From Methylocystis sp. ATCC 49242 (GTDB taxonomy: Bacteria > Pseudomonadota > Alphaproteobacteria > Rhizobiales > Beijerinckiaceae), in NCBI RefSeq assembly GCF_000188155.2, contig NZ_KE124774.1, positions 718,736-782,735 of the forward strand: a DNA stretch of 64,000 nucleotides. The letters are read 5' to 3'. Positions 13,508 through 49,360 of this stretch are shown here, one piece after another. Position 1 is the stretch's first letter, and every line of letters starts with the position of its first letter. The notes beneath the pieces are model-generated. The model saw nothing but the letters and a program-made list of their open reading frames with translations. It had not been told where the DNA came from and made no database searches. The translations under genes were made by a program, and so were the position numbers.

Positions 13508-14050
13508 TTATTGGGCCGGTTCCTCAACCGGAATGCCGGTGGGCTCGGCCGGCTTGGCTTTCGGCTTAGCCTTCGGCTTGGGCTTCGGCTTGGGCTTCGG
13601 CTTAGCGGGCGCCGGCTTGGGCTCCTCGGCGGCCGGCGCGGGCTCTGCGGCCGGCGGAGCGGCTTCTGGCGCCGGGGCCGGCGGCGGCTCTTCGGCGGCG
13701 GGAGCGGGGGGCGGCGGGGGCTCTTCAGCCTTCGGCGCCTCGGCTGGCGGGGTCTCTGTCGGCGCGGCGCTCGTTTCAGCCGGCGGCGTCTCCGGCATGG
13801 TTGGCTCCGCCTCGGTCTTCGGCGCTTCCGCCTCGGCGGGAGCCGGCGTCGCGGGCGCTTCCGTCGCTGGAGCCTCGGCAGGCGCTTCAGGCTTCCGGTT
13901 CATCTTCTCCTTGAGAGAGTCTATCCGCGACTCGATCGCGGCCCGGAGGCCAGCGACCCCTTCGGTCGGCGCCGTATAGACGCCTAGTCCATAGCCGATC
14001 GCCCCTGCGACCACGGCCGTGACAAGAGTCGAAATTCCACTTCGGGCCAT
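13508..14050 (-). CDS. membrane-anchored Pro/Ala/Glu-rich low-complexity protein
   Basis: A 180-residue protein with one N-terminal membrane segment (MARSGISTLVTAVVAGAIGY) and a short charged helix (LRAAIESRIDSLKEKMNRK). Next comes about 110 residues of Pro-, Ala- and Glu-rich low-complexity sequence, ending in a basic Lys-Pro repeat near residues 148-170. The layout is like a TonB-type spanning spacer, but no TonB C-terminal domain follows. Codon-level repetition makes the DNA repetitive (ggcttcggcttg units). No family recognised. The frame is supported by the membrane anchor, absence of stops and a downstream hairpin. Confidence 0.65.
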   Translation of the reverse strand: MARSGISTLVTAVVAGAIGYGLGVYTAPTEGVAGLRAAIESRIDSLKEKMNRKPEAPAEAPATEAPATPAPAEAEAPKTEAEPTMPETPPAETSAAPTETPPAEAPKAEEPPPPPAPAAEEPPPAPAPEAAPPAAEPAPAAEEPKPAPAKPKPKPKPKPKAKPKAKPAEPTGIPVEEPAQ

Positions 14051-14234: not shown

Positions 14235-14310
14235 TGGTGGAGCTGGGGGGATTCGAACCCCCGACCTCTGCAGTGCGATTGCAGCGCTCTCCCATCTGAG
14301 CTACAGCCCC
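14235..14310 (-). tRNA. tRNA-Ala, anticodon CGC (copy 1)
   Basis: A full cloverleaf of 76 bases read on the minus strand, with encoded CCA. The acceptor stem GGGGCTG/CAGCTCC has the G3-U70 wobble pair that defines alanine tRNA. The anticodon stem CTGCA/TGCAG encloses loop ATCGCAC, giving anticodon CGC for GCG codons. The T arm is GGGGG-TTCGAAT-CCCCC. An identical copy lies at 19800-19875 in the same orientation; identity continues seven bases past the 5' end of the tRNA (tcggaac before it). Confidence 0.97.
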
Positions 14311-14540: not shown

Positions 14541-15110
14541 CTATTCGGGCACTGGCGGCGGAAACAGCGCCAGCGCTTCCTTCGCGAAAACGCCGCCGGT
14601 TATGTCGATATTCGCGAATGACGCTGCGGCGGCCACGGTTTCGCTCGTAACCATGATCTGCCCGAGGCGAGTCGAAAGCTCCTGAATGGACGCCGCAAAG
14701 ACGACGCGCCTGAAGCCGCACCAGATGATCGCGCCCATGCACATGGGACAAGGTTCGCCGGTGGTGTAGATCGTCGCGCCATTGAGCTCGGCCGACGGAT
14801 GGCTCTTGATGAAGTTGCGGATCGCGACCATCTCGCCATGGGCCGTCGGGTCATTTGTCGATTTGCCGCTATTGTGACCGGTCGCGAGCACGCGCCCGCC
14901 TTTCTCGATCACGGCGCCGAATGGAAAATCTCCGCGCGCGGCCTCGTCGAGGGCAATGCGCATGTAGCGCTCGTCATCTGCCCGAACGGGTGTCTGCGTC
15001 GCGCGCGCCCAGGCGCCGGTCGAAGCTGCGGCGAATGCCGAGAGAAGAAGACCGCTCGTCACGCGGCGTCTATCCATGTCGCAATGACAACGGCATGATG
15101 GTTTGATCAT
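14541..15110 (-). CDS. nucleoside/cytidine deaminase-family protein with an export signal
   Basis: A 189-residue zinc deaminase of the CDA/guanine deaminase/TadA fold. The catalytic motif is TAHGEMVA (HAE type) and the zinc cysteines are in EPCPMCMGAI. Unlike normal cytosolic members it begins with an export signal: DMDRRRVTSGLLLSAFAAAS then TGAWA, with an RRR stretch resembling a Tat signal and a likely cleavage site near residue 35. The start at 15110 is favoured by an AAGGAG site eight bases upstream; a start at 15077 would begin MDRRRV. It lies downstream of a ClC exchanger gene. The substrate is unknown; guanine or related bases are typical of close families. Confidence 0.85.
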   Translation of the reverse strand: MIKPSCRCHCDMDRRRVTSGLLLSAFAAASTGAWARATQTPVRADDERYMRIALDEAARGDFPFGAVIEKGGRVLATGHNSGKSTNDPTAHGEMVAIRNFIKSHPSAELNGATIYTTGEPCPMCMGAIIWCGFRRVVFAASIQELSTRLGQIMVTSETVAAAASFANIDITGGVFAKEALALFPPPVPE

Positions 15111-15160
15111 TCCTAACTCTCCTTCGTCACGCCGCTCACGCTTGCGACGAGGAGCCTAAA

Positions 15161-15270: not shown

Positions 15271-16608
15271 TTATGTTTTCGTGTTTTGCTGCAAGGCTCG
15301 CTCGCGGCGCAGCGTGCCTGTGCGAAGCGATTCATATATGGGCGCATCGCGCAGCAGCGTCGGCGCAAGCATGGCGGCGAAACAGGCGCCCAGCATCGGC
15401 AGGAGCATGATCGTATTGGCGGTCATCTCGGTGACGAGGACGATGCCTGTCAAAGGCGCGCGCACGACGCCGGTGAAAAGCGCCGTCATGCCGACGAGCG
15501 CGAAAGCCTGCGGCTGAATGTCGGCTCCCGGGAAGAGATATTGGCAAATCGCGCCGAAGAACCAGCCGAACAGCGCGCCGAGCGCCAGCAGCGGCGCAAA
15601 CAATCCGCCGGGCGCGCCGGCCGAATAGGAGACATGGCCTAGCGCGAATCTGAGCAGCAAAATCATTGGCGCCGCTGAAAAAATCTCGGTGCCCATCAGC
15701 GCGCGCTGCGTGATTCCGTCGCCCCCGCCAACCATCGAAGGCGCATACCAAGCCAGCGCCCCGACGCCCGCGCCGATCACGCCCGCGCGCAACTCGATCG
15801 GCGCGAACTTCAGCCCTTCGGCCGCAGCAATCGTTGCAAGCAATGCGCGGTTATAGACGATCGCGAAGAGTCCGGCGACGCCGCCAAGGATGAAAAACAG
15901 CGGCTGCTGCGTGGCGGGAGGATAATGGAGCGCGCCGACATCGAAATCCGGCGTATCGCCGAGGATCATCCGCGCCACGGCGATCGCCGTTGCGGAGGAC
16001 GCGAGCGCGGCGATGGCGATGCGATGCTCGAACTTCTGAACCAGCTCCTCGAGCACAAAAGCCGCTCCCGCGATCGGCGCATTGAAGGCCGTAGCGAGAC
16101 CCGCCCCGGCGCCGGCGGCGATAAGCACGCGACAATCGGGCCAGCTCCGGCGCGACGCCCACCCGAACCAATGACCGATGACCGCCCCCATCTGCACGCT
16201 CGGCCCCTCCCGGCCAAGCGCCAGACCGGCGCCGATCGCCAGCGCGCCGCCAAGGAATTTCACGGCGAGCAGACGAAAGGGCGCCGGCGGGACAAGTCCA
16301 TGCAGCACGGCTTCGACATGCGGAATGCCGCTGCCCGATGCGTGCAAGGAAAAACACCGAACCATCCAGGCCGCGAGGAAGGTCGCCACGCCGCAAAGCG
16401 TCACGAAGAAGATGAACCCGTACGCATTGTCCCGATGCGCGACGATGATCAGCGCATCGCGCAACCGCTCGGCCCACTCGAGAGCGAGTCGGAATGCGGC
16501 GCCGACGAGTCCCGCCGCCGCCCCTGCGACAAGGGAGAGCAGCGCGAGAACCAGCAGGCCGCCTTCGTTTTCAATGGGCGCCGACTCGTGGTTTGGGTCT
16601 GTTTGCAT
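15271..16608 (-). CDS. ClC-family chloride channel/H+ exchanger
   Basis: A 445-residue polytopic membrane protein with the ClC selectivity-filter motifs: GSGIPHVEA (residues about 92-100), GREGPSVQMG with the external gating glutamate, and GAPGGLFAPLLALGA. The segment FVLEELVQKFEH supplies the internal glutamate typical of Cl-/H+ antiporters rather than channels. The length fits the bacterial form without CBS domains. It is 68 bp downstream of a CPA2 antiporter gene on the same strand and is probably co-transcribed with it, suggesting coupled proton, cation and chloride balance, for example in acid or osmotic stress. The physiological role is inferred. Confidence 0.93.
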   Translation of the reverse strand: MQTDPNHESAPIENEGGLLVLALLSLVAGAAAGLVGAAFRLALEWAERLRDALIIVAHRDNAYGFIFFVTLCGVATFLAAWMVRCFSLHASGSGIPHVEAVLHGLVPPAPFRLLAVKFLGGALAIGAGLALGREGPSVQMGAVIGHWFGWASRRSWPDCRVLIAAGAGAGLATAFNAPIAGAAFVLEELVQKFEHRIAIAALASSATAIAVARMILGDTPDFDVGALHYPPATQQPLFFILGGVAGLFAIVYNRALLATIAAAEGLKFAPIELRAGVIGAGVGALAWYAPSMVGGGDGITQRALMGTEIFSAAPMILLLRFALGHVSYSAGAPGGLFAPLLALGALFGWFFGAICQYLFPGADIQPQAFALVGMTALFTGVVRAPLTGIVLVTEMTANTIMLLPMLGACFAAMLAPTLLRDAPIYESLRTGTLRRERALQQNTKT

Positions 16609-16676: not shown

Positions 16677-17951
16677 TCACTTTTTCAAATTCAGGCTCTC
16701 GGGCATCAAGGTGAGGAAGCGGGAGGCCATCGCTGAAAACCAGTCCGCGACGCTGCGCGATACAGCGAAAATGGCGCCGTCCGGATGCGTTCGCTCCGGA
16801 TTGGTCCGAAGCCAGAAGGCCAGGGCCGGGTAGACGGTCACCGTGACAATGGCGGCGCCGACGAGCGCCGTTGCATTTTCAGGCGCCATCTGGCTCGACC
16901 TCACGCCGAGATAGGTGATGGCGACGACGAGCGGGAGCGTGGTCGACGATAACAGCGCCAGCGCTGGCAGATCGCGTTCTGCAAGCGCCTTTTTGTACAA
17001 ATTCAGCGGCGCGAGGCGAATGACGAGAAGAACGAGTGAAAATAGCGCGAAACGCGCAAGGCTCGCGGGGCTTGTTACGAGGGCGGGCAGATCGAAGGCC
17101 ACGCCGCTGGCTACGAAAAACAGCGGGATGAAAAAGCCGGAGCCGATCGTGGTCAATCGATCCTCCAGCACTTCCGCCTTTGTGCCGCGAACCAGCATGG
17201 CCACCGCCATTCCAGCCGTATAGGCTCCGACGACGGTCTCGACGCCGAAACTGTTGGCCAACGCGACGAAGCCCAGAAGTATTAGCAGCGAAACGCGAAC
17301 GGGAAGAATCTCGCTGTCGCCGAGCCAGTTCACGATTTTTTCGGACAAGCGCTCGGACCGCATGGTCGTCAGGAAAAAAATCGTTCCAACCGCGATCGCA
17401 AGAAACAGGATGCTCAGGATCGTTTGATGGATGTGGTGTTTTTCCTGCGCCAGCGCGATCGAGGCCAGAATGAGCGGAGCAAGTTCGCCCATAGCGGCCG
17501 AGCCAAGAACATAATGTCCGAAATCACTGTCGAGATCGCCTGACTGCCGAAGGACCGGAATGAGAATGCCAAAGGCCGTCGTCGGCAGGACGAGCGCGAC
17601 GAGCAGAGGCGCGCGGACGAGGCCAGCGAAATAGAGCGCCCCGACGAAAACAATGGCGAGGCCGAACGAGGCAAGCCAGGCAAGCGCGCCGAGGCGAAGC
17701 GGCGCCAGACCGATTTCATTCTGCTTGAACTCGAAACCGGCCTGAAAGAATAGGAAGACGAGACCCAGTTCGCCAAGAAACTTTATTGTCTCATCACTCG
17801 TAACAAGCCCAATAACGCTGGGGCCCACGAGGACGCCGAGCATCAGTTCGAGCGCCACCACGGGCATTAGCGCGAGCGCGGGAAGCCGAACGAGGAGCGG
17901 CGCAAGAACGGCGATGCAGGAGATGATGAATACGCCATAGAAATCGTTCAT
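16677..17951 (-). CDS. CPA2-family cation:proton antiporter
   Basis: A 424-residue membrane protein of the monovalent cation:proton antiporter-2 family (KefB/KefC/NapA-like membrane domain). Around a dozen hydrophobic segments are visible. Diagnostic pieces are LELMLGVLVGPSVIGLV near residue 35, LGLVFLFFQAGFEF near residue 65, and VVGAYTAGMAVAML. No TrkA-N or TrkA-C domain follows, so it is a short form. It likely exchanges Na+ or K+ for H+. It is upstream of and probably co-transcribed with the ClC gene, and downstream of a channel-like gene. Confidence 0.9.
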   Translation of the reverse strand: MNDFYGVFIISCIAVLAPLLVRLPALALMPVVALELMLGVLVGPSVIGLVTSDETIKFLGELGLVFLFFQAGFEFKQNEIGLAPLRLGALAWLASFGLAIVFVGALYFAGLVRAPLLVALVLPTTAFGILIPVLRQSGDLDSDFGHYVLGSAAMGELAPLILASIALAQEKHHIHQTILSILFLAIAVGTIFFLTTMRSERLSEKIVNWLGDSEILPVRVSLLILLGFVALANSFGVETVVGAYTAGMAVAMLVRGTKAEVLEDRLTTIGSGFFIPLFFVASGVAFDLPALVTSPASLARFALFSLVLLVIRLAPLNLYKKALAERDLPALALLSSTTLPLVVAITYLGVRSSQMAPENATALVGAAIVTVTVYPALAFWLRTNPERTHPDGAIFAVSRSVADWFSAMASRFLTLMPESLNLKK

Positions 17952-40902: not shown

Positions 40903-41799
40903 TCAGGCCGCCTCCACCGTCACTTCCACGATTTCCGGCGGGCGCATGAAGCGCACGGGCAGGATCGACTCGCCGAGCCCGCCCGAGATCACCAAATGGC
41001 GGTCGTCCTCGATGAAATGCCCGTAGATGTTCTTGGTGCGCCAGCGCAGTTCGGCGACGATCGGCCCCGCGAAAGGCAGGTTGACCTGCCCGCCATGCGT
41101 ATGGCCGCAGAGCGTCAGCGCCACACGCTTCGGCGTGCGGGAGAAAATGAAGGGTTCATGCGCCAGCATGATCGCGGGCGCGTCGTCCGTAAGCAGGCCG
41201 AGCGTCGCGTCGAGATTGTCGTGGCCTTTCCAGCCGATCTTCCCGCCCAGATAAAACGCCATCTGGTCGCCGAGGCCGAGCAACCAGAACGGTTGACCAT
41301 CCTTTGTGAGGCGCAGCGCATCGTTCTCGTAGACGCGCGCGCCCATCTGCTTCAGCGCGCGACGAACGCTTTCGGCTTCGTCGGGTCGATCGCTCGGCAA
41401 CGGCCCATGCCACCAGTCGTGATTGCCGAGCACGGCATGGACGCCCAGCGGCGCCTTCAGTTCAGAGAGCGCTTCGCCCCACTGCTGGGGCGTGACGGGC
41501 CCTGTCGTCAAATGCGTGCCGGCGGCGAAATCGCCGAGCAGCGCGACAAGGTCTGGCGAAAGCGCGTTGGCGACCCGTGCGATCTCGCGAATGCGCGAGA
41601 CGGGCATCCATGGCTCGCAGGCGTGGAGGTCGGTGATGACCGCGATGCGCAGCCGCAGCCCATGCGGCCAACCCTTGGGCGTGACGCGGTAGCGCGTCAC
41701 GTCGAGCATGAAGCCCGGTTCGATGAGGACCGAGTAGGCTCCCAACCCGGCGAGCGCAAGCCCGCCTGGCCAGCGCAGGAAATCGCGTCGGCTGATCAT
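40903..41799 (-). CDS. Tat-exported metallophosphoesterase
   Basis: A 298-residue calcineurin-like phosphoesterase with a twin-arginine signal MISRRDFLRWPGGLALAGLG. Metal motifs are AVITDLHACEPW (D, H), ALLGDFAAGTH (GD), AVLGNHDWWHG (GNHD), IMLAHEP and TLCGHTHGGQVNLP. This is the YkuE/YaeI-like group, whose members include lipid-related UDP-diacylglucosamine or phosphodiester hydrolases. The Tat signal places it in the periplasm or membrane. Substrate not readable. Confidence 0.9.
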   Translation of the reverse strand: MISRRDFLRWPGGLALAGLGAYSVLIEPGFMLDVTRYRVTPKGWPHGLRLRIAVITDLHACEPWMPVSRIREIARVANALSPDLVALLGDFAAGTHLTTGPVTPQQWGEALSELKAPLGVHAVLGNHDWWHGPLPSDRPDEAESVRRALKQMGARVYENDALRLTKDGQPFWLLGLGDQMAFYLGGKIGWKGHDNLDATLGLLTDDAPAIMLAHEPFIFSRTPKRVALTLCGHTHGGQVNLPFAGPIVAELRWRTKNIYGHFIEDDRHLVISGGLGESILPVRFMRPPEIVEVTVEAA

Positions 41800-48019: not shown

Positions 48020-49360
48020 CTAGAAATGGGTGGGGATCAGCGAATGATCACCCGCATCCCATTTATAATTATAGCCTAATGTGAACTCCATACCCTGCAC
48101 CCAGGGTGAAATTGTCGCACGTGGGTTCGGCGCGCCGAAGGGCAGGCCCGGCTGCGCCGGAATCCACTCGATGCCGGTGAAGGAGTTCTTGAAGGCGTAG
48201 ACGAAGGCGAAATCCACGGATGAATTCGGCGTGACGACATAGTTCGCGCCGACGCTCGCATGATGGCGATTAATGATCGGCGACAGGGCGTTGACCGTCA
48301 CGGAGCGCCAGCGCAGCGGATTGGTGCTGTAGTGATAGCCGGTGCGCAACGTCAGCGCCGGAGAATAGCGCCACTCGACGCCGATGGCGCCGGAGTCGAC
48401 GTCCGTCCAGTCGAAGCCCGGACCCGAGCCCGTGCCGAGCGAACGATAGAGCGTGGGATTCGTCGGGTTCCCGAGCGCCGGCACGGCCGAGTAGAAAATA
48501 TGTCGCCAGTCCATCATGACCGTGAGGTTCGGCAGGACGTCATAGGCAAGGCCCGCCTGCATGTTGGCGGGAATGTCGAAGCGACCGGCGTCCGCGAAGA
48601 GGCCGGCGTATTTGTCGAAGCGCGACATCCACATCGGCGTCGAGCCAGAGAAGCCGAAGCGGAATTTGTCGGTGATGCTCCACAGAAGACCCGCATGCAC
48701 GCCGCCGCCCCATGACCAGTCGAAGGCCATGTCCGACATTTCCCAGGGGTTGGAGGAAAGGGGCGACAACATTTTGAGGCCCTGCACATTGATCATCTGC
48801 ACGGCGATGGTCGGCGCGAAGCCGATGGAGATCGCGCCGAGGGGCGTGGCGAAGCGTCGAGCGTAGCCGACGCTCATGAAGCCCTGATGCAGATCGACGC
48901 CCGCGAAGCCGCCGCCGAGCGGACCGCCGAAGGGCGCACGGTAATGACCCCAGTCATAGGCGGTGTTGATGCCGCCATTGGCGTAGCTGACGATGCTCCA
49001 TGCGGAATTGGCGTCGATCGGCTGGACGTAGCCGCTGTTCGGCACCGGGAACCAGGGGCGGCCGCTCTGCACTTCGCCGGGCGCGAGCACGCGCGGCGTT
49101 CCGGTCGTCTTGTAGCCGCGATCGGCGACGATGCCGGTCAGGCCGAGCTGGAACTGGCGCTCCAGACCGACGATGCTCGCTGGGTTGGTCGACAGCGCCA
49201 TGGCGTCACGCTGATCGGCGGCGCCGGCGCCGCCCAGCGCTTTTGCGCGTGGTCCATAGCCGATCAGGAAATAACCGTCGGCCGCATGGGCCGCCGAGAC
49301 GGCTCCGAGGACGATCGCGGACACGGCGAATGCGAATCGGCGCGAATAAGATTTGGTCAT
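48020..49360 (-). CDS. FadL/OmpP1-family outer-membrane transport protein
   Basis: A 446-residue outer-membrane protein. Signal peptide about residues 1-26 (FAFAVSAIVLGAVSAAHAAD). The FadL N-terminal hatch is visible: GYGPRAKALGGAGAADQRDA and the conserved STNPASIVGLERQFQLG. Many beta-strands follow with alternating aromatics, ending in MEFTLGYNYKWDAGDHSLIP. FadL relatives take up hydrophobic molecules such as fatty acids or aromatics; the substrate is unknown. A terminator lies downstream. Confidence 0.92.
   Translation of the reverse strand: MTKSYSRRFAFAVSAIVLGAVSAAHAADGYFLIGYGPRAKALGGAGAADQRDAMALSTNPASIVGLERQFQLGLTGIVADRGYKTTGTPRVLAPGEVQSGRPWFPVPNSGYVQPIDANSAWSIVSYANGGINTAYDWGHYRAPFGGPLGGGFAGVDLHQGFMSVGYARRFATPLGAISIGFAPTIAVQMINVQGLKMLSPLSSNPWEMSDMAFDWSWGGGVHAGLLWSITDKFRFGFSGSTPMWMSRFDKYAGLFADAGRFDIPANMQAGLAYDVLPNLTVMMDWRHIFYSAVPALGNPTNPTLYRSLGTGSGPGFDWTDVDSGAIGVEWRYSPALTLRTGYHYSTNPLRWRSVTVNALSPIINRHHASVGANYVVTPNSSVDFAFVYAFKNSFTGIEWIPAQPGLPFGAPNPRATISPWVQGMEFTLGYNYKWDAGDHSLIPTHF

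Follow-up and report, generated by a model that had tools for sequence, protein, structure and literature searches.

The window (the whole 64,000-nucleotide stretch of DNA analysed here, G000:C6:718736-782735 of a 4.7-Mb Methylocystis genome) encodes a zinc deaminase that is probably exported by the twin-arginine (Tat) system and that, together with the membrane protein DUF2165, probably acts outside the cytoplasmic membrane as an aminohydrolase of a small heterocycle. The fold and the family of this enzyme are already known; what is new is the export signal, the narrow distribution and the pairing with DUF2165. Toxins apart, no paper on an exported deaminase with this fold was recognised among the open-licence papers listed for deaminases and Tat, signal peptides or the periplasm. 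The gene, its parts and its neighbours in the window are located as follows:

14541..15110, minus strand: deaminase gene, 189 residues, ATG at 15110, stop codon at 14541-14543 included in the coordinates
15118..15123, minus strand: ribosome-binding site AGGAGA, 7 nt ahead of the ATG
15006..15110, minus strand: Tat-type signal, residues 1-35, read from the sequence and kept in orthologues
15081..15095, minus strand: cysteines C6, C8 and C10 of the n-region (CRCHC)
15063..15071, minus strand: RRR, residues 14-16, twin-arginine motif
14694..14978, minus strand: zinc deaminase domain PF00383, residues 45-139, Pfam match
14832..14840, minus strand: H91-G92-E93, zinc ligand and catalytic glutamate (sequence; roles by homology)
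14739..14753, minus strand: P120-C-P-M-C124, with zinc ligands C121 and C124 (sequence; roles by homology)
15271-16608: ClcA-type chloride transporter, neighbour
16677-17951: CPA2 antiporter, neighbour

Among the start codons that spare the deaminase domain, the one that includes the signal has the best ribosome site, in line with the good site noted in the initial annotation: AGGAGA ahead of the ATG at 15110 agrees with AGGAGG at 5 of 6 positions, and the two starts that lie between signal and domain score 3/6 (GTG, codon 17) and 4/6 (ATG, codon 50), either of which would cut the signal off. An in-frame ATG at codon 12, which would retain the RRR, has 2/6 matches, and a GTG at codon 74 has 5/6 at a spacing of 4 yet lies inside the deaminase domain. 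Downstream of the gene lie a tRNA-Ala (cgc) at 14235-14310 (minus strand) and, at 13508-14050 (minus strand), a gene for a small protein without a Pfam family, with a start that looks hydrophobic by eye and a long tail rich in Ala, Pro, Glu and Lys.

Membership of the deaminase fold is clear, with PF00383 (dCMP_cyt_deam_1) matching at E 2.2e-26 and 92.1 bits against a cut-off of 25. The HGE (91-93) and PCPMC (120-124) zinc motifs, reported as intact in the initial annotation, are both present in the 189-residue ORF, and none of the 44 rows of alignment A3 departs from H91, E93, C121 or C124. The substrate-anchoring Asn position is retained as N80, and the five residues N80, H91, E93, C121 and C124 are spaced identically to Asn69, His80, Glu82, Cys110 and Cys113 of the Arabidopsis guanosine deaminase described in an excerpt of PMC9739398. 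Zinc-dependent hydrolysis of an exocyclic amine is, by homology, very likely the chemistry. The protein also matches MafB19-deam (PF14437; 68.1 bits versus a Pfam cut-off of 27), as do all 44 rows of A3, which is expected of a related fold. No NCBIfam model scores above its cut-off; the best, TadA (NF008113), reaches 70.8 bits against an equivalog cut-off of 150, and another gene of the same genome scores higher as TadA at 124.7 bits, itself below 150. A further PF00383 protein of this genome (L004, G000:C6:2054019-2057291; 35.7 bits), read from a chosen start, matched no NCBIfam model.

The structure model of the deaminase has a mean pLDDT of 90.9, with block means of 96-99 over residues 41-180, and the residues up to 36 are of low confidence and without helix or strand. 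Its structural neighbours are TadA, the tRNA adenosine-34 deaminase (Z ~21, engineered and natural), Arabidopsis guanosine deaminase (GSDA, 7dbf; Z 19.7), and yeast cytosine deaminase and the Msmeg3575 deaminase (Z ~19). Because these scores are nearly tied, the structural neighbours do not give the function. TadA has the highest of them, but the window protein stays below the TadA equivalog cut-off, and a periplasmic protein would meet no tRNA.

A periplasmic guanine (or guanosine) deaminase serving purine salvage is favoured by the profile search of solved structures, in which Bacillus subtilis guanine deaminase (GuaD; 1wkq, 1tiy) comes first (E 3.1e-36) and the Arabidopsis guanosine deaminase follows (E 3e-34). 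GuaD shares with the window protein the PF00383 fold, the H-x-E and PC-x-x-C zinc site and the anchoring Asn, and is a cytoplasmic enzyme with a closing C-terminal Tyr. The marks of membership in the GuaD/GSDA group are, however, absent from the window protein. The GFDD that follows the fourth strand in guanine and guanosine deaminases aligns with the k-l-s-q of the family profile and is replaced by RLGQ in the window protein (aligner confidence at this segment ~0.8), and Gln151 is nearly invariant, being shared by 90% or more of the 44 A3 rows. The C-terminal Tyr is also lacking, the window protein ending in LFPPPVPE; in guanosine deaminase, which carries GFDD as well, the corresponding Tyr185 caps the active site (PMC9739398, in excerpt). 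The genome, moreover, contains no match to the nucleobase permease families NCS2 (PF00860) and NCS1 (PF02133); molybdenum hydroxylase domains are present, with a xanthine dehydrogenase identity that is putative at most. A guanine or guanosine deaminase is thus quite improbable in spite of the profile scores and the retained N80, and the initial suggestion of extracellular purine salvage finds no support in the permeases or in the subfamily marks. With these marks absent, the substrate cannot be read from a known subfamily.

The twin-arginine-like signal at the start of the protein is present as first described: DMDRRRVTSGLLLSAFAAAS forms residues 11-30 and is preceded by MIKPSCRCHC. The signal comprises RRR at 14-16, the uncharged hydrophobic stretch VTSGLLLSAFAA and an A-x-A at 33-35 (AWA, then RA), and a cleavage site is proposed after AWA (A35). 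TatC is encoded in the genome (E 7.6e-72). The two Tat signal profiles that were run do not recognise the window protein; PF10518 matches 2 of the 44 rows of A3 (best E 0.23) and TIGR02811, a formate-dehydrogenase TAT model, matches 1 of 44, the window protein being in neither case among them. Signals were also scored with a written rule, namely RR.[FGAVML][LITMVF], a stretch of 12 residues that is free of D, E, K and R and has a mean hydropathy of 0.9 or more, and then A-x-A. This rule accepts 3 of the 97 ORFs of at least 150 residues in the window. A calcineurin-like phosphoesterase at 40903-41799 (minus strand) carries a textbook-like Tat signal, MISRRDFLRW. The signal of an OmpP1/FadL-type outer-membrane transport protein at 48020-49360 (minus strand), which is probably a Sec substrate, passes the rule, so the rule is not fully specific for Tat.

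The relatives were collected at 61 loci, of which 30 belong to the same genus, 27 lie on named contigs and 4 are more distant; they yield 51 distinct proteins. The full rule is satisfied by 38 of the 51, versus 0.27 expected from 500 shuffles of each, and the RR.[FGAVML][LITMVF] pattern alone occurs in 41. The 13 failures consist of four proteins without a signal (L033, L054, L061 and L112), eight with variant or interrupted motifs (L006, L009, L021, L031, L043, L057, L060 and L106), and L105, which is counted as a failure because the rule ignores its GTG start, though GRRRFLETAAGAAL stands upstream, and which is labelled signal-bearing in the tree. The signal is also absent in L173 and L178. 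Some relatives carry a textbook-like signal (e.g., MHRRTVLQGG in Hyphomicrobium); in others the arginine motif is degenerate (PR in L031, RQ in L009) or an R lies inside the hydrophobic stretch. The n-regions differ widely among members that keep the RR (Hyphomicrobium, Acetobacter, Streptomyces), and the flanking residues vary while RR, hydrophobic stretch and A-x-A persist in the 38. Export, as the initial annotation proposed it, is well supported as a prediction by the conservation of the signal and by TatC, and the silence of the Tat profiles on the window protein counts against it.

This pattern bears on whether the signal is a Tat signal at all. Export by Sec, or anchoring in the membrane by an uncleaved signal, with the arginines serving merely as a positive n-region, would account for the weak or silent Tat profiles, for the FadL-type protein that passes the same rule, and for the orthologues with RQ, PR or an R within the hydrophobic stretch. 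It is nevertheless unlikely, given that the arginine pattern recurs in 41 of the 51 distinct members despite very different n-regions. The Tat system carries folded proteins, and an enzyme with zinc-binding cysteines that folds around its metal would, as a matter of general knowledge, suit that route.

Alternatively, the enzyme may be cytoplasmic in this species, its N-terminus being a remnant, a dimerisation segment or a regulatory tail. Relatives without the signal (L033, L054, L061 and the cyanobacterial proteins) do exist, so the fold does not need a signal and export is not essential to it. The cyanobacterial and plasmid 'nucleoside deaminases' (e.g., Stanieria, Nostoc) are 40-49% identical to the window protein and share an [AG]SI..L...QI segment, but lack the arginine signal and usually start ~3 residues before the domain; no clear function emerged from the neighbourhoods of the cyanobacterial genes. 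Mapped on a tree of 72 rows, the presence or absence of the signal requires no fewer than 4 changes (shuffled mean, 21), and well-supported branches force at least 2 of them. The cyanobacterial group is signal-less in this tree, and a Streptomyces/Labrenzia/Alcaligenaceae group bears the signal in 3 of 4 rows. The signal appears to have been lost in Methylocella (L061) and in genomes G003 (L033) and G008 (L054) of the window's genus, the forks near the window deaminase being poorly resolved and compatible with both loss and separate origins. A second point in favour of a cytoplasmic tail is that the n-region is rich in cysteine, which is unusual for a signal and may indicate another function: CxC, CxxC or CC precedes the arginines in 24 of the 46 proteins with an arginine motif, and any Cys does so in 34 of the 46, mainly in Methylocystis. 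Cysteine-rich n-regions (CRCHC, CGCG, CECEIC and others) were seen in the window protein and in L006-L020, L022-L024, L026, L028, L040, L050 and L056. Before it leaves the cytoplasm, the precursor could use these cysteines to bind metal. Against a purely cytoplasmic role, RR, hydrophobic stretch and A-x-A persist in 38 of the 51 distinct members amid varying flanks, and this reading is accordingly rather unlikely.

The premise of the initial annotation that the known members of this family are cytosolic holds as a general rule and is not absolute. Polymorphic-toxin deaminases of the MafB19 type (PF14437) are secreted by other routes. Escherichia coli YahJ has an amidohydrolase barrel, which differs from the fold of the window deaminase, and the cytosine deaminase CodA likewise has another fold. 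YahJ, a putative deaminase, is among the predicted Tat proteins tabulated in PMC3027627 (in excerpt), and CodA is reported to work extracellularly in Bifidobacterium once it is given a signal peptide (PMC4472781, in excerpt), although this is a man-made fusion with another signal, unlike the window deaminase.

Tat export of a heterocycle deaminase remains the preferred reading, and the distribution of the gene is narrow. Of the 36 further genomes of the genus that were examined, 31 have an orthologue at 56-67% identity (E <1e-50), giving 32 of 37 with the window's own; among the five genomes that lack one, G024 is complete and the other four have a completeness of 59-81%. One genome (G027) has a second copy (E 2e-51). 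Named matches at 51-65% identity come from Methylocystis, Methylocapsa, Methylocella, Hyphomicrobium and Acetobacter nitrogenifigens, and further matches in this range from Beijerinckiaceae, Xanthobacteraceae and other Alphaproteobacteria. A family sweep recovered the deaminase in 26 of 199 genomes and 4 of 41 genera. In a phylum sample in which 8 candidates per genome were scored, at least 1 of 397 genomes has it, the window's own being the only one among the matches listed (profile A1, E 1e-38). The class sample gave at least 9 of 289 genomes at E 1e-21 (profile P0001); eight of these nine matches end in Tyr and carry FDD or FRD, as GuaD does, which leaves the window's own.

The distribution within the genus also bears on the initial proposal of a role in defence. 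A secreted antibacterial toxin or an antiphage deaminase could be read from the MafB19-deam match above its Pfam cut-off and from partial matches to the antiphage dCTP deaminase (NF041025; 29 bits versus a cut-off of 400) and to the PADLOC dCTPase (E 9e-7). The latter two matches, however, are confined to residues 91-138, so that the PADLOC match spans 48 residues only and neither covers a whole model. The protein consists of nothing beyond a signal and one short domain, whereas MafB19-type toxin deaminases have a large delivery region before the domain. That 32 of the 37 genomes examined in one genus carry it is also unlike the patchy occurrence of defence genes. A defence role therefore finds no support and is highly improbable.

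The pairing with DUF2165 was observed in relatives outside Methylocystis. In an all-against-all comparison of neighbouring ORFs at 28 loci (the window and L038-L064), DUF2165 (PF09933; E 5e-55 and 1e-59 for two copies) was the only gene family that recurred right beside the deaminase outside Methylocystis. Of the 27 loci L038-L064, 7 have it next to the deaminase gene (L043, L050, L055, L056, L058, L059 and L060, the DUF2165 gene of L060 being cut by the contig end), none of which is Methylocystis. In the family sweep outside the window's genus, DUF2165 lies within the 1.5-kb flank in 11 of 15 deaminase genomes. As L043 is the same locus as L166, and L050 the same as L164, the two sets make 16 distinct DUF2165-adjacent loci, arranged as follows:

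DUF2165 upstream of the deaminase, 10 loci: L043, L050, L060, L161, L162, L163, L167, L168, L170, L171
DUF2165 downstream of the deaminase, 5 loci: L055, L056, L058, L172, L174
DUF2165 convergent with the deaminase, 1 locus: L059

The two genes are thus on the same strand in 15 of the 16 loci, with junctions of -4 to 198 nt (14 of 15 at no more than 64 nt, lengths that rest partly on chosen start codons); the -4 junction is an ATGA overlap in L043. Under random placement, adjacency in 7 loci of a set of 16 that was meant to exclude Methylocystis and wrongly includes one genome of the window's genus (L054, G008) has P ~1.5e-18, and three independent events in 15 have P ~2e-7; since related genomes are not independent, the latter figure is the fairer one.

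Other neighbours were less consistent. The ClcA-type transporter and the CPA2 antiporter beside the window gene were considered as functional neighbours and rejected, because they do not recur around orthologues except for a ClC domain at L050, beside the Methylocapsa aurea gene, which is taken as coincidence. That domain belongs to a single ORF of 1023 residues (L050:6526-9594, minus strand) that combines a KAP P-loop NTPase with a ClC chloride channel and adjoins the deaminase. One group of Methylocystis loci has an acyl transferase and an acetyl-CoA synthetase as syntenic neighbours. A recount of families present in at least 3 of 15 loci outside Methylocystis returned the deaminase, DUF2165, ABC-transporter ATPases at varied distances, one gene common to three Hyphomicrobium-type loci, and three clusters in which some or all ORFs run antisense to the deaminase or to genes beside it.

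Adjacency to DUF2165 tends to coincide with the signal. All 11 DUF2165-adjacent loci of the family sweep bear an arginine signal by eye (the variant in L166 fails the written rule), and among the four non-adjacent loci the signal is absent in L173, L176 and L178 and present in L175. This is suggestive of DUF2165 going with the exported form of the deaminase, but L176 (the Methylocella silvestris contig of L061) and L178 are close sisters, and the signal-less Methylocystis genome G003 keeps a distant DUF2165 gene.

At the level of whole genomes, DUF2165 was found in 17 of the 289 class genomes, counting that of the window, in 14 of the 20 genomes reached through deaminase loci (absent from 6) and in 0 of 14 well-known control genomes. 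Among 61 genomes compared, it is present in 29 of 32 with a strong orthologue of the deaminase (E <1e-50; the exceptions are G008, G010 and G029) versus 5 of 29 without, a contrast that reflects mostly kinship as all 32 genomes belong to one genus. Within Methylocystis both genes are usually present but apart: in the genome of the window ~153 kb separate DUF2165 from the deaminase, the fetched flanks of the Methylocystis deaminase loci contain no DUF2165, and the proposed partnership therefore rests on the relatives. DUF2165 also occurs without the deaminase (in G012, in G024 and in 16 of 288 other genomes of the class), which implies other roles for this family, and 23 DUF2165-centred loci (L118-L140) contain no such deaminase within ~1.5 kb or less, so that, within this sampling, the association is seen in this deaminase clade only. 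One genome (G352) has two DUF2165 matches in tandem on one contig.

The fold of DUF2165 predicted from 6 sequences (pLDDT 78) matched no solved structure at E <=0.001. In the literature, taken in excerpt, DUF2165 appears as an ORF conserved in three genera on the downstream side of the gene cluster for the antibiotic D-alanylgriseoluteic acid (PMC11350110), as a row beside efflux genes in a quorum-sensing transcriptome table (PMC12114271) and among the unknowns of a Pseudomonas aeruginosa pangenome (PMC4710005). The proteins of the antibiotic and quorum-sensing settings share the family name with the partner proposed here, and the excerpts of PMC11350110 and PMC12114271 mention no deaminase. 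These contexts hint that DUF2165 may handle small, possibly toxic ring compounds at the membrane.

Taken with the conserved signal and the intact active site, the pairing is most consistent with the following course of events. The enzyme, of the TadA/guanine-deaminase fold, would fold and take up zinc in the cytoplasm and would then cross the inner membrane as a folded zinc enzyme through Tat. Cleavage at A35 would leave a periplasmic enzyme of ~154 residues, in which H91, C121 and C124 would serve as zinc ligands and E93 as the general base, and which would act on a small heterocycle, such as a nucleobase, a nucleoside or a similar ring, by hydrolysing its exocyclic amino group. DUF2165, an integral membrane protein, most likely works with the deaminase, and may bring or remove its substrate or product or anchor the enzyme at the membrane.

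A more specific proposal, which we hold only tentatively, is that methanotrophs and other Alphaproteobacteria, many of them methylotrophs, possess a module of two genes, DUF2165 and the Tat-exported deaminase, in which a nitrogen heterocycle is finished or detoxified in the periplasm, with DUF2165 moving this compound across the inner membrane or anchoring the enzyme there. Should this module exist, it would to our knowledge be without precedent as a periplasmic pathway based on a deaminase of the TadA fold, and DUF2165 would receive an assigned role for the first time. Through the recurring pair, DUF2165, so far a membrane family without a function, acquires a definite partner that can be tested, and the natural signal-less relatives offer ready controls. 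If the proposed export is correct, base or nucleoside chemistry that is usually deemed cytoplasmic would also occur outside the inner membrane of methane oxidisers, organisms that are environmentally important.
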